Origin: a virus
Strand: one strand, 5' to 3'
Length of the DNA: 38,527 nt
Virus record (IMG/VR): IMGVR_UViG_3300019360_000021
Coordinates: 1 to 38,527 of that record
Shown: one piece after another, positions 4,589-38,177 of the stretch
Layout of the letters: each line of letters opens with the position of its first letter
How positions within the stretch are numbered: the stretch's first letter is position 1
Program-made: the position numbers and the translations under genes
The notes under the pieces: model-generated
Seen by the model: only the letters and a program-made list of their open reading frames with translations
Database searches by the model: none
Told to the model about the DNA's origin: nothing

Positions 4589-5704
4589 ATGGCCACCTTC
4601 AAGATCCGCTACTTCGTCGAGAAGCCCGACGGGCGCTGCTACTGGCAGCCGGCGAACGCGTTGCGCCGGCAGGGCTGGCAGCCACGCCGGCTGCCCGCCG
4701 AGCGCCAGGCCGCCATCCTCGAGGCCGAGCGTCTCAACGGCGAGCTCGATGCTTGGCGCAGCCAGGCCTCGAGCCCCGCGCCAGCGGGGATCCTGCCGCC
4801 GCGCGAGCTGGCGCGCACGCTCGCGGCCCTGGTCACGCGCTGGAAGGCGAGCGACGACTGGAAGGAGCTGGCGCCCAAGACGCGCACCACCTACCTCTAC
4901 TGCCTCGAGGCCATCCTGGCGTGGTCGGGCGACGCGCCGGCGGCCAGCCTCACCGGCGAGCTCGTGCGCAAGTTCTACAAGGCGCTGGCCAGGAAGACGC
5001 CGGGCAAGGCGCACGCCACCGTGCGCGTGCTGCGTACCCTGCTGCAGCACGGCATGCGCCTCGACTGGATCAAGGTCAATCCGGCGGCGCGGCCCGGCCT
5101 GGTCGACACCGCCCGCAAAGGCCGGCTGTGGTCGAAGGCGGCGATCGCCGCCTTCGTCGCCGCCGCCGACCGCCTGGGCTGGCACAGCGTCGGCACCGCC
5201 GTGCTGCTCAACGAATGGATCGGCCAGCGCGAGGGCGACGTGATCCGGCTGTCCCGCGCGCAGTACCGCGACGGCACCATCCACGTCCGCCAGGCCAAGA
5301 CCGGCGCCGAGGTGGCGCTGCCGGTCGGCCTGGTGCCGCACCTGGTGGCCCGCCTCGAGGCCGAGCTGCAACGCGCCGCCAAGCTCAAGGTGCAGCCGAC
5401 GACCCTCTTGGTGTGCGAGACCACCGCCGCCCCCTGGAAGGAATACCACTTCCGCCACGTGGTGCAGCAGATCCGGGCCGCCGCCGTCGCGACGTGTCCC
5501 GAGCTCGCCGACCTCTGGTTCATGCATCTGCGCCACACCGCCATCACCCGCCTGGCCGAGGCCGGCTGCAGCAATGGCCTGATCGCCACCATCAGCGGCC
5601 ACAGCCAGTCGACCGTGCAGCTGATGATCGACCGCTACATGATCCGCACCGCGGCCATGGCCCGCGCCGCCTTCCAGGCCCGCCTCGACAAGGAGCGGGG
5701 ATGA
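4589..5704 (+). CDS. int: Tyrosine recombinase (phage integrase)
   Basis: A 371-residue protein. The N-terminal part (about 1-70) is an arm-binding-like domain, about 75-180 the SAM-like core-binding domain (TLAALVTRWKASDDWKEL), and the rest the catalytic domain. Catalytic residues are visible: Arg in GQREGDVI, Lys in the RQAKTGAEV hairpin, the H-x-x-R motif MHLRHTAITRLAEAG, His in ISGHS, and the nucleophile Tyr in DRYMI. Length is normal for the family. It sits beside an excisionase-like gene and about 800 bp from a tRNA-derived attP, so it should integrate the phage into a host tRNA-Arg gene. Its stop overlaps the start of the next gene. Confidence 0.95.
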   Translation: MATFKIRYFVEKPDGRCYWQPANALRRQGWQPRRLPAERQAAILEAERLNGELDAWRSQASSPAPAGILPPRELARTLAALVTRWKASDDWKELAPKTRTTYLYCLEAILAWSGDAPAASLTGELVRKFYKALARKTPGKAHATVRVLRTLLQHGMRLDWIKVNPAARPGLVDTARKGRLWSKAAIAAFVAAADRLGWHSVGTAVLLNEWIGQREGDVIRLSRAQYRDGTIHVRQAKTGAEVALPVGLVPHLVARLEAELQRAAKLKVQPTTLLVCETTAAPWKEYHFRHVVQQIRAAAVATCPELADLWFMHLRHTAITRLAEAGCSNGLIATISGHSQSTVQLMIDRYMIRTAAMARAAFQARLDKERG

Positions 5705-31096: not shown

Positions 31097-32644
31097 TCAC
31101 CACTGATAAGGATCATATTCCTGCGCCGGCTCGCGGCCGCGCATCGCCGCCGCCCGCTCGCGCTTCTCGCGCCGGCCGGTGACCTCCATGAACTCGCCGC
31201 CGCCGAGCAGCAGGTACTGGCCGGCGTCGTGCACGTGCGACCATTCGTTCTTCTCGGGCTTGTCGTCCCAGCGGTCGGCGCCGGCGAGCTGCAGCTTGCG
31301 GAAGCGGTAGCCGGCGGCGAAGCCCTCGATCAGCACGACGCAGTTGGGCGAGATCAGCAGCCCGCGCTGGCCGCCCTCGATCGGCCGCACCAGCGCCTGG
31401 CGCACGGCGTCGTGGCGCGGCGCCAGCTCGTTGCCGCCGGGCGCCGGCTTGATCGGGATCTGCGTCTTCGCCGCCACCACCTCCATCCACGACTTGTCGC
31501 CCGCCTCCGTGTCGCCGCCGTAGAAGGCGGCCGGGTCGCCCCAGCCGACGATCGGCTTGGCGAACTCGCCGTCGCCGCGGCGCAGCCAGAAGCCCTCGGT
31601 GACGGCGCGGTAGCGCGGCGTCGCCAGCAGGGCGTTGATGTATTCGGCCAGGCGCGTCGGCCCGGTGGTCTTGTCGGCCGGCGTCACGATCTCGTCATAG
31701 ATGCGCCACTGCGCGTTCGGCATCTTCTGGCCGATCAGCACCGCCGGCGTGCCGCCGCCGTCGAGGCCGAGCTCGAGCGGGATGCCCGGCACCGGCGACA
31801 GGATCGTCTTCGACACGTTCAAATTGGGGTCGAAGTCGTCGTAGACCGGCTTGCCGGCGCGCGAGTAGCCGGGCTTGTTGTCGACGTAGCGCGCCACCCA
31901 CCAGGGCGGATTGCGCAGCGCCAGGTCGTCGTAGTATTCGCGCCCGCCCTTGAGGTGCGTCAGGTTCTCGGCCTCGGGATCGCGCCCGCCCGGCTGGCGG
32001 AAGAACTCCTCGCCCGGCAGCAGCGGCCCCTTGATGAAGCGCTTGTAGCACCAGTTCTCGGTGTTGGGCGCGTTGAAGTCGAGCGACACGCCGGCCCAGT
32101 CGGCGCCGGCGCCGGTGGCGGCGTCGGTCGGCGGGTAGCGGCCCTTGCGGCCCAGCAGGTAGGTGAGCAGCTCCTCGGCGCATTTGTCGGCCGCGTTGAT
32201 GAAGGCCGAGGTGAACTCGAAGCCGTCGAGCGCGGTGTCGATCGCCTGCTCGTTGAGGCCGACGAATTCGACGATGTACTCCAGCCGATAGTCGCTGCCC
32301 TTCTGCTCCCAGGTCATGGTGTGCTTGGCCGGCCGCCCGCCCTCGCCGCCGACCCATTCGAGGCCCTCGCCTTTCTTCGGGAACCAGCGCACCCAGGTCG
32401 GAATGGTGGTTTTCTCGAGCTGGCGGAAGGTGTCGCGCACGACCAGCGTCTTCCAGCGCCGCCAGCCGTCCGGCTGCACGCGCGACGTCTGCGCCTTCAT
32501 CACGGGATCGATCAGGCAGGTCGAGGTCTTGCCGCTGCCGTACGGCCCCATGATCGCCCGCACGGTCGCCGTCGAGGTGAGGAACCGCGCCGCCACCTTC
32601 CCCGGCGGCGCATAAGGCACAACCCCGGACGCGGCGCCGGTCAT
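31097..32644 (-). CDS. terL: Terminase large subunit (TerL)
   Basis: A 515-residue protein from ATG 32644 (ATGA overlap). Walker A is MGPYGSGKTSTC at about 31-42, followed by an adenine-binding-type region and RDTFRQLEKTTIPTWVRWFP; the ATPase motor is about 1-230. The C-terminal RNase-H-like nuclease has a first acidic residue in LELGLDGGGTPAVLIGQ (V-G-x-D-x-G-x-x-P-A type), and later WGDPAAFYGGDTEAGDKSWM with a further Asp. This is the packaging motor and headful nuclease. Directly next to an RHH gene and, farther up, a small-terminase candidate. Confidence 0.92.
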   Translation of the reverse strand: MTGAASGVVPYAPPGKVAARFLTSTATVRAIMGPYGSGKTSTCLIDPVMKAQTSRVQPDGWRRWKTLVVRDTFRQLEKTTIPTWVRWFPKKGEGLEWVGGEGGRPAKHTMTWEQKGSDYRLEYIVEFVGLNEQAIDTALDGFEFTSAFINAADKCAEELLTYLLGRKGRYPPTDAATGAGADWAGVSLDFNAPNTENWCYKRFIKGPLLPGEEFFRQPGGRDPEAENLTHLKGGREYYDDLALRNPPWWVARYVDNKPGYSRAGKPVYDDFDPNLNVSKTILSPVPGIPLELGLDGGGTPAVLIGQKMPNAQWRIYDEIVTPADKTTGPTRLAEYINALLATPRYRAVTEGFWLRRGDGEFAKPIVGWGDPAAFYGGDTEAGDKSWMEVVAAKTQIPIKPAPGGNELAPRHDAVRQALVRPIEGGQRGLLISPNCVVLIEGFAAGYRFRKLQLAGADRWDDKPEKNEWSHVHDAGQYLLLGGGEFMEVTGRREKRERAAAMRGREPAQEYDPYQW

Positions 32645-32868
32645 GCGAAGCGCCCCTTTGACAACCAAGCCAGGATGTCCCGCCGCGACATTTTGTCGAC
32701 TGAGGGTGCATGCCTCAGCCCCCACCAAAGCAGTTGGTGGATCTCTCTCGAGAGCGGCTGCCCATGTTTCTGTGCGCGGACTTCAAGCGCTGCGCGAAGC
32801 TCAGATGATGCGCGGATGCACAGCACTGCATCTTGGCGAGGACCTCGCCCGATTGGGCCGCGCTTCAT
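32641..32868 (-). CDS. Arc-like ribbon-helix-helix protein
   Basis: A 75-residue protein from ATG 32868 (ATGA overlap). The segment DAVLCIRASSELRAALEVRA followed by GQPLSREIHQLLWWGL is a classic Arc/MetJ ribbon-helix-helix: a DNA-contacting strand, then two helices. Usually a dimeric repressor. Inserted between a zinc-finger protein and TerL, it may autoregulate the packaging/late operon or bind pac/cos. Confidence 0.75.
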   Translation of the reverse strand: MKRGPIGRGPRQDAVLCIRASSELRAALEVRAQKHGQPLSREIHQLLWWGLRHAPSVDKMSRRDILAWLSKGRFA

Positions 32869-33534: not shown

Positions 33535-34071
33535 TCAATCGCTTGGCGCATCTTGTCCAACTCCGTCTTGTCCAACTCCGGGATCCTCGGCGGTGCTAAC
33601 CCCTTGATCCCCCTCGATAACCAGCCGCACCGGCCCGGCCTGGTCGGCGCCCGCCTCGCCGGTCAGCTTGGCCGGGTCCAGCATGGCGAACAGCAGCGCG
33701 CCTTTGCCCTCGACGTTGAGGTCGCGCGGGAGCTGCTGCTCGGTGTAGGGCAGCAGCGCGATCGCGGCCATGCGCTGCTCGGCCAGCGCGTCCGCCCGCT
33801 TGATGCCGAGCCGTTCCGACAGCTTGGCCGTGTCCTCGTTGTAGAGATCGTACAGCCACAGGCCCGGCATCTTGCCGCCGCGCGCGGCCAGCTCGCGCCG
33901 GAACTCCTCGGTCCGCCGCCCCCGCGCCCCGAGCGGCCGCCCTGGTTTCCGCGCCCCTTCGACCGGCGCGCGCGCGCCATCGGCCGGCGCCAGCAGCTCG
34001 CCCTGGCGCGCCTCGGGCACGACGCCCCCCGCGTCCGCCAGCGCCTGCTCGATCCCTGCTATCCGCGCCAT
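33535..34071 (-). CDS. terS: Putative terminase small subunit
   Basis: A 178-residue protein from ATG 34071. After a disordered N-terminus (GARKPGRPLGARGRRTEEFR), the core RELAARGGKMPGLWLYDLYN, KLSERLGIKRADALAEQRMA and LLPYTEQQLPRDLNVEGKGA is helical, with a possible HTH at the LGIKRADAL region. It lies immediately beside the origin-like array and two genes away from TerL, the place of terS in BPP-1-like phages. C-terminus carries a GVGQD duplication. Assignment is largely positional; another DNA-binding protein remains possible. Confidence 0.5.
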   Translation of the reverse strand: MARIAGIEQALADAGGVVPEARQGELLAPADGARAPVEGARKPGRPLGARGRRTEEFRRELAARGGKMPGLWLYDLYNEDTAKLSERLGIKRADALAEQRMAAIALLPYTEQQLPRDLNVEGKGALLFAMLDPAKLTGEAGADQAGPVRLVIEGDQGVSTAEDPGVGQDGVGQDAPSD

Positions 34072-34094
34072 TTATTCCCCTTTGTCAATTGGAT

Positions 34095-34370
34095 CAAGGC
34101 TGAGACGCGCGTCTCTTACAGCGTCTCACCCCGTCTCGCCTGACAACCCTTTGATTAGACGTATGTTTGAAAGAGTGTGAGACGCTTGAGACGCTTGAGA
34201 CGCTACGCGCGCGCGTATGCGCCTGCGCCCGCGCCCGCACACGCGCGCTCACGCGCGGGCGAGGGTCGGAGCGTCTCAAGCGTCTCACCTCCCTCGAAAA
34301 GCGCGCAAGTTCAAGGCCTTGCCGCCTGAGACGCTGTGAGACGCTGTAAGAGACGCGCGTCTCAGCCTTG
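34095..34370. other. ori: Candidate replication origin: nested inverted repeats with GAGACG iterons
   Basis: A perfect 35-bp inverted repeat (34095-34129 with 34336-34370) encloses a perfect 19-bp inverted repeat (34177-34195 with 34270-34288). Both are made of GAGACGCT(T/G) units; I count 13 GAGACG copies (7 forward, 6 reverse). The centre (34201-34260) is alternating purine-pyrimidine GC sequence that could form Z-DNA. It sits in the only noncoding gap beside the helicase and primase genes. This looks like an initiator-bound iteron origin. Confidence 0.7.
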
Positions 34371-34374
34371 TGAT

Positions 34375-34391
34375 TGCAGGACAATCCTGCA
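34375..34391 (-). terminator. Hairpin directly behind the helicase gene
   Basis: TGCAGGA and TCCTGCA pair perfectly around a 3-base loop, one base beyond the helicase stop. There is no T tail; it may stabilise the mRNA end or be part of the origin. Confidence 0.4.
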
Positions 34392-36236
34392 TTACGCCCC
34401 TCCCTTGCCCTTGGCCGGGGGCAGAACAGTCGCCAGCGGCAGCCTGGTCGAGCGCGCCTCCACCCCGTTGAAGCGGTCCTTGCCGGCCACGGCACCCGGC
34501 AGGCGGCGCAGCGCCTGCATCCACACGCCCGCCGCGCCGGAGCGCGCCGCCCAGTGGGTGGCGCCGAACAGCTTGGCCAGGCCCTGATGCGAATTGGCGA
34601 CCGCCAGCCACTCGCCGACAGCGTCGCGCTGCACCTTGAGGCCGTGGTTGCCGAGCGCCTTCTCGGCCTCGCCCTGGCTGTAGCCCATGTTCGACTGCGC
34701 GCCGCTCTCGCGGGCGTCGCGGATCCAGTCGGCCACGGTGGTCTTGGCGCCGGCGCGGTAGACCTCGAGCTCCGAGGTCAGCAGATGCGCCAGACAGCGG
34801 GCATGGTCGGGCGCGGCGTCGTCGCGCTCGGCCATGGCGTCCGCCGTCAGCAGAGCGCAGATCTCGCTCCGGCAGTCGCTCGAGGGCGGATGGTCGTGCA
34901 GCGCCAGGTCGGCGCAGGCCAGCAGGGTGCCGAGCTGGTCGGCGCCGCGGCCGCCATGGCCCACCTGCAGCAGCGCTTGCCGCCAGGTCTCCAACCGCTC
35001 GGGCAGCTGCGGCCACATCTCGATCATGCGGCGCCGCAGCGCCCGCCCGAGCGCCAGCAGGCGCGCCGGCGAGAGGTCGGGCGCCGCGCGCGGCGTGTCG
35101 TCGGCGTTCTTGCCGGGCAGTTCCTCGAGGTCGAGGATGGCGAGCCGCGAGCGGTCCTGGTTGAGCAGCGGCGGGATCAGGATCGACGAGAACAGGAATG
35201 AACTCCTGGCCGTGAATTCCGTAGACTTGTGGTCGCTGCCGCCCCGCATGATGCGGCCGCCGCTGGCGGCCTGGCGGGCCAGCGTGACGATCGCCTGGGC
35301 GCGGCGCGGATCCTCCTGGGCCTCGAGCTCGTCGAAGGCGACCGGCAGCGCGCTGTAGCCGAGCGTCTGCCAGATGCCGGCGGCCGAGGCGTCGGACGTC
35401 GTCAGCAGGCCGCCGGCGAACAGGCCGCCGACGCAATCGACCAGCAGCGTCGACTTGCCGGTGCTGGCGTCGCCGGTGACCCAGCACATGCTGCGCCAGG
35501 TGAGCGCCGCGCCCAGCATGGCCGAGACGATCCAGCCCAGCAGCAGGCGGGCGTCGACGTCGGCGCTGTCTCCCTGCGAATTACGCCGCGCGCGGCGGCG
35601 CCATGGCCAGGTCGTGAGCAGCTTGAGTGTTGTCGCGCCCGCCTGGCGCGACAACTCCATATCGTCATCGGGCCGGGGCAAGGGCGCGGACGCCGGGTAG
35701 ACGTGGCGGCCGAAGCGGCCGGGTGGCTTCCAGGCGCCCGCCGCCAGGACGGCGTCGCCGCAATGCAGGATCAGCTCGCCGGCGTCGCCGCGCCAGGCGC
35801 CGCCGCCGCGGATGGTCTCCAGCGGGTTCCACAGCGGCAGGCGCGCCGCCGCCACCTTGAGCGCCCGCCCCGCCGCCTCCGGCCGCCAGCCGACGATGAC
35901 CCAGTTGTCGTCGATCAGCTTCTTGCGCGGGAACCACTCCTCGAGGCGGCCGGCCTGGCGCCCGAACAGCGCCTCGAGCGCGGCCCGCCCGAGCTCCTGG
36001 GCGCCGAGCTGGATGTACTGCCGGCGCTCGTCGAGGAAGTGGTACTGCTGCCCCGTCACGCCCAAGGGCTCTACCGGACAGTTGGGCGGCAGGGTGACGT
36101 CGCGCTCCGGCGGCGCGCCGCCGCCCTGCCGATGATCGCCGACGTCATCGTCGGGCGCCGGCGGCGGCGCCAGCTCGCCGTTGTCGATCACCAGGCGGAC
36201 GGGTCCGCTCTCTGGCCCTGATTTTGGGGTGGTCAA
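34392..36236 (-). CDS. SF3-like replicative helicase / DUF927-type ATPase
   Basis: A 614-residue protein from TTG 36236 (AAAGG nine bases upstream; no ATG is available nearby). Walker A is CWVTGDASTGKSTLLVDCVG (about 253-271), Walker B-like LPVAFDELEAQED, and a sensor/arginine region around RSSFLFSSILIPPLLNQDRS. This arrangement resembles D5/SF3-type helicases of phage and plasmid primase-helicase systems. Coupled with the primase gene upstream and the iteron array downstream. It should unwind the phage origin. The N-terminal about 200 residues are of unknown fold. Confidence 0.82.
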   Translation of the reverse strand: MTTPKSGPESGPVRLVIDNGELAPPPAPDDDVGDHRQGGGAPPERDVTLPPNCPVEPLGVTGQQYHFLDERRQYIQLGAQELGRAALEALFGRQAGRLEEWFPRKKLIDDNWVIVGWRPEAAGRALKVAAARLPLWNPLETIRGGGAWRGDAGELILHCGDAVLAAGAWKPPGRFGRHVYPASAPLPRPDDDMELSRQAGATTLKLLTTWPWRRRARRNSQGDSADVDARLLLGWIVSAMLGAALTWRSMCWVTGDASTGKSTLLVDCVGGLFAGGLLTTSDASAAGIWQTLGYSALPVAFDELEAQEDPRRAQAIVTLARQAASGGRIMRGGSDHKSTEFTARSSFLFSSILIPPLLNQDRSRLAILDLEELPGKNADDTPRAAPDLSPARLLALGRALRRRMIEMWPQLPERLETWRQALLQVGHGGRGADQLGTLLACADLALHDHPPSSDCRSEICALLTADAMAERDDAAPDHARCLAHLLTSELEVYRAGAKTTVADWIRDARESGAQSNMGYSQGEAEKALGNHGLKVQRDAVGEWLAVANSHQGLAKLFGATHWAARSGAAGVWMQALRRLPGAVAGKDRFNGVEARSTRLPLATVLPPAKGKGGA

Positions 36237-36271
36237 GGGGCCGCGCCTTTCTGGCGTATCGCCCCAATCAT
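36233..36271 (-). CDS. 12-codon bridging ORF between primase and helicase
   Basis: ATG 36271 overlaps the primase stop (TGATG), reads MIGAIRQKGAAP and its TGA overlaps the TTG start of the helicase (TTGA). Such an exact bridge lets ribosomes re-initiate from primase to helicase. It may be only a coupling device, without a functional peptide. Confidence 0.3.
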   Translation of the reverse strand: MIGAIRQKGAAP

Positions 36272-37323
36272 CACGCCGCCCCCTTGGTCAGCAGCTCGTT
36301 GATGTCCTTCACGGCCGCCGGCGGGCGGTGGAAGAAGACCTCGTGGCCCTTCTGCTGCAGCGCGCGCACGGCCTGGTCGCGCTGCGCCAGCGTCTTGGGG
36401 TTGCTGTCGTTTTGCAGCAGCAGGTGCAGCCGCTTGAAGCGGCCCACCTCGAGATTGCCGATGTTGCACAGGCTGACGGCGGCGATGATGCGCAGCTCGG
36501 GCGCCGCCAGCGCGGCGGTGAGGCCGTCCTCGATGCCCTCGGAGATCCACAGCTCTTCGCCGGCGGACGCCTGGGCCAGGCTCTTGCCGGAGCATCCGCG
36601 CGCCAGGCGGATGAAGCCGCCGTGATAGGCCGGCCACACCATCTTGTTCGGCATCGGCGCCTTGACGACGTTGTCAGCCGTGATCTGCAGCCAGGTGCGA
36701 TGCACGGCCAGGAAGCGGCCGTGGTGGTCCGCGATCGCCGCCACCATGGCCGGCCAGTGCCGCCGGGTCGGCCGGTGCCAGAGATCGGGATGGAAGCGGA
36801 TGGCGCCCGGCAGCCGCGGCAGCGCGCGCAGGTCGATGCCGCGCCCGCGCAGGTAGCGGTCGACCGGCGATCCCAGCAGCTGCTCGCCCTCGCGGCCGGC
36901 CAGCCAGATGCCGTGCGCGCTCTTGCGGTCCTTCTCGGCCTGCGCGGCCTCGCCCTCGGTGTCGCGCGGCGGCCCCATGGCGCCCAGGCCCGGGCGGGTC
37001 GCCCTGGGCGCCATGGCGCCGCCGACGTCATACCCCAGCCAGCGCAGCGACCACTGCACCGCCTGGCGCTTGTCGCCCATGAACAGCGCCTGCGCGACCA
37101 GGTCGAGGGCATCGCCGTACTCGCCGGTGGCGTAGTCCTTCCAGTGGCCGCGCCGCGCGCCGGCGAGATAGATGGCCAGCGACTGCCCGGCCTCGCCGGC
37201 GAGCGAGCCGACCTGGCAGTAGCGCCCGTTGAAGCGGCCCTTGGGAAAGAATTCAGCGCACAGGGCCTCGATGCGCAGCGTGAGCTGCGCGACGACGTCC
37301 TTGATGTCGACGGGGCGGGTCAT
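36271..37323 (-). CDS. Toprim-domain DNA primase
   Basis: A 350-residue protein from ATG 37323 (ATGA overlap). The N-terminus has YCQVGSLAGEAGQSLAIYLA and GHWKDYATGEYGDALDLVAQ, the fold typical of the DUF7146-type region preceding Toprim. The Toprim domain is LWISEGIEDGLTAALAAPEL (with the catalytic Glu in E-G-I-E), a later acidic motif is LQNDSNPKTLAQRDQAVRAL. It lacks a CHC2 zinc finger. Together with the helicase it forms a phage primase-helicase pair for origin-dependent replication. Confidence 0.82.
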   Translation of the reverse strand: MTRPVDIKDVVAQLTLRIEALCAEFFPKGRFNGRYCQVGSLAGEAGQSLAIYLAGARRGHWKDYATGEYGDALDLVAQALFMGDKRQAVQWSLRWLGYDVGGAMAPRATRPGLGAMGPPRDTEGEAAQAEKDRKSAHGIWLAGREGEQLLGSPVDRYLRGRGIDLRALPRLPGAIRFHPDLWHRPTRRHWPAMVAAIADHHGRFLAVHRTWLQITADNVVKAPMPNKMVWPAYHGGFIRLARGCSGKSLAQASAGEELWISEGIEDGLTAALAAPELRIIAAVSLCNIGNLEVGRFKRLHLLLQNDSNPKTLAQRDQAVRALQQKGHEVFFHRPPAAVKDINELLTKGAA

Positions 37324-38177
37324 GCGTCGTCGACCAGGAATTCGATGAACCAGAACTTGTCGACCTTGCGCAGATCGATGCGCGCCGCGTTCTCGACGAT
37401 GAAACTGCGGACGTTGCGGCGATGGATCCACCATTGATCGCCGCCCTGCTGCGGGGTGCGCTCGGTGCCGCGCTTGGTGGCCTTGATCCAGCCCTTCTCG
37501 CACCAGTTCGCAACCGTGGACCCGTCCAGTCCCAAGCACACCGCCAGCCCGGTCGCGGTAAAATGGTTGGGATCATGGCGATCGAGCCGGAGGCGTTTCA
37601 CCTTGTTGTGGATCGCCGCCTCCGAACGATGGAAGCCGCGATTGCGCAGCAGGCGCTGCAAGACTGCATCGGACTTGTGTGCATTTGCCTCGAGCACGTC
37701 CTCTTCGGCCCCCGTCCAATCGGGTTGCTTGAAGCGGGGTGCGACGAGGCCAAGCTGGCGGGCGCGGCCACTTACCCACCAGCGCGGCCGTTGCAGGCGG
37801 GTTGCAAGTTCATTGACCTCGCCGCGGCCGATCCTGTCGCTCTGGTAGACGCGTCGGATCTGTTCATCGATCTCCGGCGATGGCGGCCACGCGTTGAGCG
37901 GGTGGTCGGAACGCTTGGCGGATTTGAGCCCGAGAATATTGGCGCGCGCATAGATCGAAATCGGCGAGCGGTTAGGCAGCAACGGCATGCAGGCCCGTAG
38001 CCCACCATTTGGGTAGTGCTCGCGCAGAATTTTTTCCTCGCGCGTCGTCCAGTAGTAGCGGCGACGTTGTGGCATCACCGCCGGCAGTGTCGTGATCGCT
38101 TCGGACGTCGACGTCGACGGCGACTGGGCGAATTCGCTCATGCTGCCTGCTGCAGGCCCGTCGACCGGCCGGCTCAT
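37320..38177 (-). CDS. DNA-binding protein with Myb/SANT-like repeats
   Basis: A 285-residue protein from ATG 38177 (ATGA overlap); another ATG is at 38141. Two Myb/SANT-like motifs are visible: YYWTTREEKILREHYPNGGL, followed by SPISIYARANILGL, and later DWTGAEEDVLEANAHKSDAV with AAIHNKVKRLRL. A further HTH-like segment, ATGLAVCLGLDGSTVANWCE, follows. Such proteins in phage replication modules bind DNA as regulators or origin recognition factors. Being just upstream of primase, helicase and iterons, it is the best candidate initiator. Confidence 0.7.
   Translation of the reverse strand: MSRPVDGPAAGSMSEFAQSPSTSTSEAITTLPAVMPQRRRYYWTTREEKILREHYPNGGLRACMPLLPNRSPISIYARANILGLKSAKRSDHPLNAWPPSPEIDEQIRRVYQSDRIGRGEVNELATRLQRPRWWVSGRARQLGLVAPRFKQPDWTGAEEDVLEANAHKSDAVLQRLLRNRGFHRSEAAIHNKVKRLRLDRHDPNHFTATGLAVCLGLDGSTVANWCEKGWIKATKRGTERTPQQGGDQWWIHRRNVRSFIVENAARIDLRKVDKFWFIEFLVDDA

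Follow-up and report, generated by a model that had tools for sequence, protein, structure and literature searches.

The repeat array at 34102-34363 of the window, by which we mean the whole 38.5-kb IMG/VR virus record analysed here, is very probably (we would put it at roughly 0.87) the replication origin of this temperate phage, and the neighbouring helicase would open it. This reading is supported by the conserved layout of the array, its match to the P4 type I half-site and the adjacent helicase of the self-loading type, not by the evidence on which a preliminary description of this DNA had proposed an origin. That description called the array novel-looking; its sequence is new to phage and plasmid collections, but its layout is a variant of the P4 and PICI origins. 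Phage origins of this kind may have been described earlier, the literature covered being open PubMed Central.

The array and its genomic setting

The window has the appearance of a temperate phage, and its structural set, with tail and adaptor proteins and the major head protein, is podovirus-like. The features used below are the following.

4589-5704: integrase
31097-32728: large terminase (TerL)
33535-34071, minus strand: small-terminase-like (TerS-like) gene with a GRPxGSxNK motif, the next gene after the array; assigned from a family built from the loci and from its position before TerL
34102-34137: left outer iteron block, from exact GAGACG matches and layout; units 34102-34107 (+), 34110-34115 (-), 34122-34127 (-) and 34132-34137 (-)
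34138-34178: left spacer of 41 bp; most relatives have 35-41 bp, P4 has 37-39 bp
34179-34202, plus strand: left inner iteron block, with three units in tandem every 9 bp (34179, 34188, 34197)
34203-34271: core, presumed unwinding element; 82% GC, 73% alternating purine-pyrimidine
34272-34286, minus strand: right inner iteron block, with two units in tandem (34272, 34281)
34328-34363: right outer iteron block; units at 34328, 34338 and 34350 (+) and 34358 (-)
34392-36236, minus strand: D5/SaPI5-Rep-like AAA+ helicase, presumed initiator (phrog_21086, phrog_35358)
36271-37323, minus strand: DUF7146 + Toprim primase gene (Pfam), probable ATG start at 37323
37320-38177: Myb/SANT-like gene (phrog_323, D5-like regulator), overlapping the primase start

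Minus-strand transcription would pass the Myb-like gene, the DUF7146/Toprim primase, the AAA+ helicase, the array, the small-terminase-like gene and the large terminase in this order. The array is intergenic, as the preliminary description had noted in placing it in noncoding DNA beside the primase and helicase genes. It is located between the ends of the flanking helicase and TerS-like genes, directly 3' of the Rep-type helicase gene, with 29 bp from the helicase stop to the first unit; a few ORFs run across it in overlapping frames and were not counted as genes.

The 13 GAGACG units in both orientations and the nested perfect inverted repeats reported earlier were all recovered. Exact matches of GAGACG or CGTCTC number 13 within the 262 bp, where about 0.2 are expected (32.6 per 38.5 kb), and with a Poisson score of 18 (-log10 p) the array is the strongest 6-mer cluster of the window. 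The arms of the 35-bp repeat are at 34095-34129 and 34336-34370 and extend imperfectly to 60 bp at 83% identity, while those of the 19-bp repeat are at 34177-34195 and 34270-34288. The layout reads '>4<7<5< [41] >4>4> [71] <4< [41] >5>7>4<', that is, two iteron sets flanking a central region. This is the single iteron array of the window, which has no two separate sites such as the ori and crr of P4.

Cumulative GC-skew had been proposed as a check on the origin. Its minimum in the window falls at 34709 but is weak, and among four relatives a detrended minimum near the array was found only in Acjo_20; being weak and inconsistent, skew was dropped as evidence for the origin.

Direct DNA similarity search with the array gave no match in phage and plasmid collections, and exact 17-mer search in genomes gave scattered matches, nearly all outside dense GAGACG arrays. 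The word itself was seen elsewhere. In one phage (L006, 3770-4030), about 12 GAGACG units stand just 3' of an unrelated PrimPol/RepA-like helicase gene; the layout differs, being mostly direct repeats, so that the same word occurs in an unrelated replicon. A Nitrososphaera contig (L053, 208-400) has seven GAGACG units in about 200 bp.

Conservation of the layout in related loci

The helicase has distant homologues in known phages. Scanning with an alignment of four helicase sequences led to 80 viral loci, unlike single-protein helicase scans of viral and genome contigs, which gave no match; a query from locus L215 returned already known contigs only. Most of the 80 loci have one strongly enriched word of 5-6 bp, whose copies form one array that usually follows the helicase gene on its 3' side. 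The preliminary description had taken absence of the repeats from relatives that keep the replication genes as evidence against an origin. GAGACG is indeed absent there, yet another word stands in the same layout, which recurs in some 60 related viral loci as well as in several known phages. Between them, 54 loci use twenty words, such as GTTAC, AGAAC, GGAAC, GGGAC, AGACA, GCTAC and GCAAC. By a helicase-core tree of these loci, from which the reader domain was left out, the word changed at least 28 times, or at least 25 times when strand is ignored, and the layout was retained.

The conserved layout consists of an outer block, a spacer, an inner block, a core and then the mirror image. The spacer is 35-41 bp in most loci and 47-52 bp, about one helical turn more, in some; the inner blocks have two or three units at 8-9 bp pitch; and the core is mostly 45-100 bp. 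In a few loci, e.g. L138, L141 and L157, the layout deviates on one side. A word-free template built on spacing and orientation only, and derived from the same loci that it first scored, gave 16 for the window and 13.5-16 for most loci, against a maximum of 7.5 in 90 dinucleotide shuffles. As a held-out check, seven loci were fetched later: six of them carry arrays of this kind, two of which deviate, with template scores no higher than the best shuffle. About ten helicase relatives have no array in the fetched DNA. Lineages differ in how the word is oriented relative to the core: it reads AGAAC in L189, for example, and GTTCT in L131.

The window copy is strongly palindromic (fold z -14.5), and this could reflect a structural palindrome or a repeat expansion without any function as protein sites. 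Such an origin of the array leaves unexplained why relatives keep the spacing while the letters change; because the layout is conserved, this explanation is contradicted and its probability is negligible. Since the relatives keep the order and spacing of the sites, the cruciform seems to be a mere consequence of the symmetry of protein sites.

Composition of the core

The core had been described as a 60-bp alternating purine-pyrimidine stretch. The alternation is strong, being reached by only 0.07% of same-length stretches of the window, but the core is really 69-71 bp long, with 73% of its steps alternating and a longest run of 19 nt. Over 50 distinct cores of the group, the mean GC content is 62%, and four are AT-rich (below 45% GC). 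Alternation exceeds that of letter shuffles (mean z 2.6), an alternating run of significant length occurs in 43 of the 50, and comparison with same-length windows of their own locus places 28 of 45 in the top 5% for alternation. The alternating core is thus a feature of the group, though not a universal one.

CCTC near the left inner block, or GAGG near the right one, was observed in 27 of the 50 cores, where 12.5 are expected and the shuffle maximum was 22. It is possible that this is a strand-specific element.

Candidate reader of the repeat word

The AlphaFold2 model of the helicase has a pLDDT of 90.6. Its best PDB matches by Foldseek are the helicase of NrS-1 PrimPol, the poxvirus/asfarvirus D5-type proteins (D5/E5) and SaPI5 Rep (7ola, E 1.9e-6), and no PDB match was found for the window helicase at the sequence level. 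By its predicted fold, the initiator candidate is a D5-type AAA+ helicase, as in PICIs. The C-terminal domain, about residues 480-605, is the presumed reader of the iterons. Its strand-helix order in the model, read by eye, is that of a winged helix; the domain has no significant PDB match, including to the P4 origin-binding domain 1ka8, and a P4-type fold for the C-terminus was dropped on this ground.

Among 46 loci, the Mantel correlation with the word was 0.239 for the C-terminal domain, 0.151 for the AAA domain and 0.073 for the N-terminal part, and it was 0.19-0.20 for TerS distance; the gaps between these values are modest, and some effect of relatedness is still in them. The histories of helicase and TerS part in three loci. 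L197 and L201 share TerS at 88% and differ in word, whereas L201 and L211 share the word and have TerS proteins only 23% identical. Judged from these sequences, the word follows the helicase, not TerS, where the two can be told apart. The changes specific to L197 are densest in the helicase C-terminal domain, at 0.118 per site vs 0.05-0.08 in the other parts. Among the positions affected, in window numbering, are 577, 585-586 and 593-595, which surround the putative recognition helix and wing. This is suggestive of C-terminal changes tracking the word, in one comparison with 11 changes.

The same comparison bears on the idea that the array is a packaging site (cos or pac), at which the TerS-like protein would bind the repeats and mark the terminase cut, as at lambda cosB beside nu1. 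As a rule, just 20-100 bp separate the array from the TerS-like gene, in 43 of 55 cases the array being within 100 bp upstream of it, and TerS distance also correlates with the word. In L174, L176 and L206, the array is not after the helicase but together with the TerS-like gene on the upstream side of primase and helicase. However, the TerS-like protein does not co-vary with the word in L197, L201 and L211, even though a weak overall correlation exists, and in phi1422 and Acjo_20 the arrays are beside replication genes, at about 7 kb from TerL in the former and about 4 kb from the terminase in the latter. Because word and TerS dissociate and these two arrays are far from the terminase, a packaging site is quite improbable, and the P4 half-site layout is that of a replication origin. 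Lambda cosB/cosN likewise has repeats upstream of the small terminase gene, but it differs from the arrays described here in that their word is not tied to TerS identity, their halves are symmetric and some of them are far from the terminase.

The preliminary description had pointed to the Myb/SANT-like protein as a possible initiator. No homologue of it was detectable in the relatives' flanks searched, whereas homologues of the Toprim primase are present in 58 loci, and the word changes go with the helicase. We rejected the Myb-like protein as an unlikely initiator, since it is not conserved.

Relation to known origins

Outside these phages, the layout is known from small satellite elements such as phage P4, whose type I iterons are read by its alpha protein. 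The P4 record annotates 'ori type 1 repeats', whose word is GTGAA. The P4 crr reads '<4< [37] >6>2>10<' and the P4 ori '>5>6>18< [37] >5>', and each half of the window array has the same half-site layout: an inner pair at 9-10 bp pitch in P4, a spacer of 37-39 bp there, and an outer group in which one unit is flipped. Another example of such a half is the right one of L130, '<3< [36] >8>18<3<'. In P4, AT-rich DNA is on the core side of the inner pair. P4 has single half-sites at two places (ori, and crr as a tandem pair), whereas the window array combines two that face each other; its alpha protein fuses primase and helicase and has a winged-helix origin-binding domain, while primase and helicase are separate genes in the window; and no fold match was found between the DNA-binding domains. 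P4 alpha matches SaPI5 Rep by sequence. The phage arrays resemble a pair of P4-type half-sites in head-to-head arrangement.

Another reading would make the array a regulatory or partition site, where a repressor, a ParB-like or a ribbon-helix-helix protein would control the late operon, incompatibility or segregation. The array does border the block of terminase and structural genes on its 5' side, and a small ribbon-helix-helix-like ORF was seen by eye just after the arrays of L006, L134 and L136. Mirror symmetry around a core and a P4 half-site match would be unexpected of an operator, however; arrays occur both upstream and downstream of the helicase, and no such regulator was seen common to all loci. 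We regard this explanation as very improbable. A role of the ribbon-helix-helix-like ORF in copy control is possible.

Comparison with SaPI and PICI origins was made via published descriptions only. PICI origins follow rep on its 3' side and have a central region with an iteron set on either side (PMC6092414), and in the related Cch2 it is the C-terminal domain that binds a direct-repeat region with 5-nt iterons (PMC7581432). The window array is likewise directly 3' of a D5-like helicase gene with a predicted SaPI5 Rep fold and has two sets of short iterons around a central stretch. It differs in that this stretch is alternating and 82% GC, whereas that of PICIs is AT-rich, and in that the carrier is a phage that has virion genes of its own.

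Iteron plasmid origins have a Rep protein, a DnaA box, an AT-rich DUE and direct repeats of about 20 bp. They share with the array repeated initiator sites beside an opening region, but the units in the window are of 5-6 bp in mirror symmetry, and the mechanism proposed below would need no DnaA-type loader.

Proposed mechanism and implications

We propose the following mechanism for the replication origin. The AAA+ helicase (34392-36236) would bind the GAGACG units via its C-terminal domain, and each half, composed of outer block, spacer and inner block, may nucleate one helicase ring. The mirror-image halves would bring two rings face to face, with the alternating core between them. Melting of the core would then allow two forks to leave in opposite directions, and the Toprim primase encoded next door would prime both.

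It is possible, though we hold it at a little under an even chance, that a large group of tailed phages uses one rigid origin architecture of two inverted P4-type half-sites. Its opening element would be alternating and GC-rich (Z-DNA- or cruciform-prone) rather than AT-rich, and the word and the helicase reader domain would change together, making a recognition code readable from sequence.

The origin organisation that has been called unique to PICIs (PMC6092414) occurs in phages with their own virion genes, provided that the arrays are origins, and the P4-like half-site spacing in phages would link satellites and phages by replicon type. A conserved alternating core that is not AT-rich challenges the usual AT-rich opening element in GC-rich replicons. 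The natural word switches, at least 25 in number, may serve as ready pairs for studying how a self-loading helicase chooses its origin.
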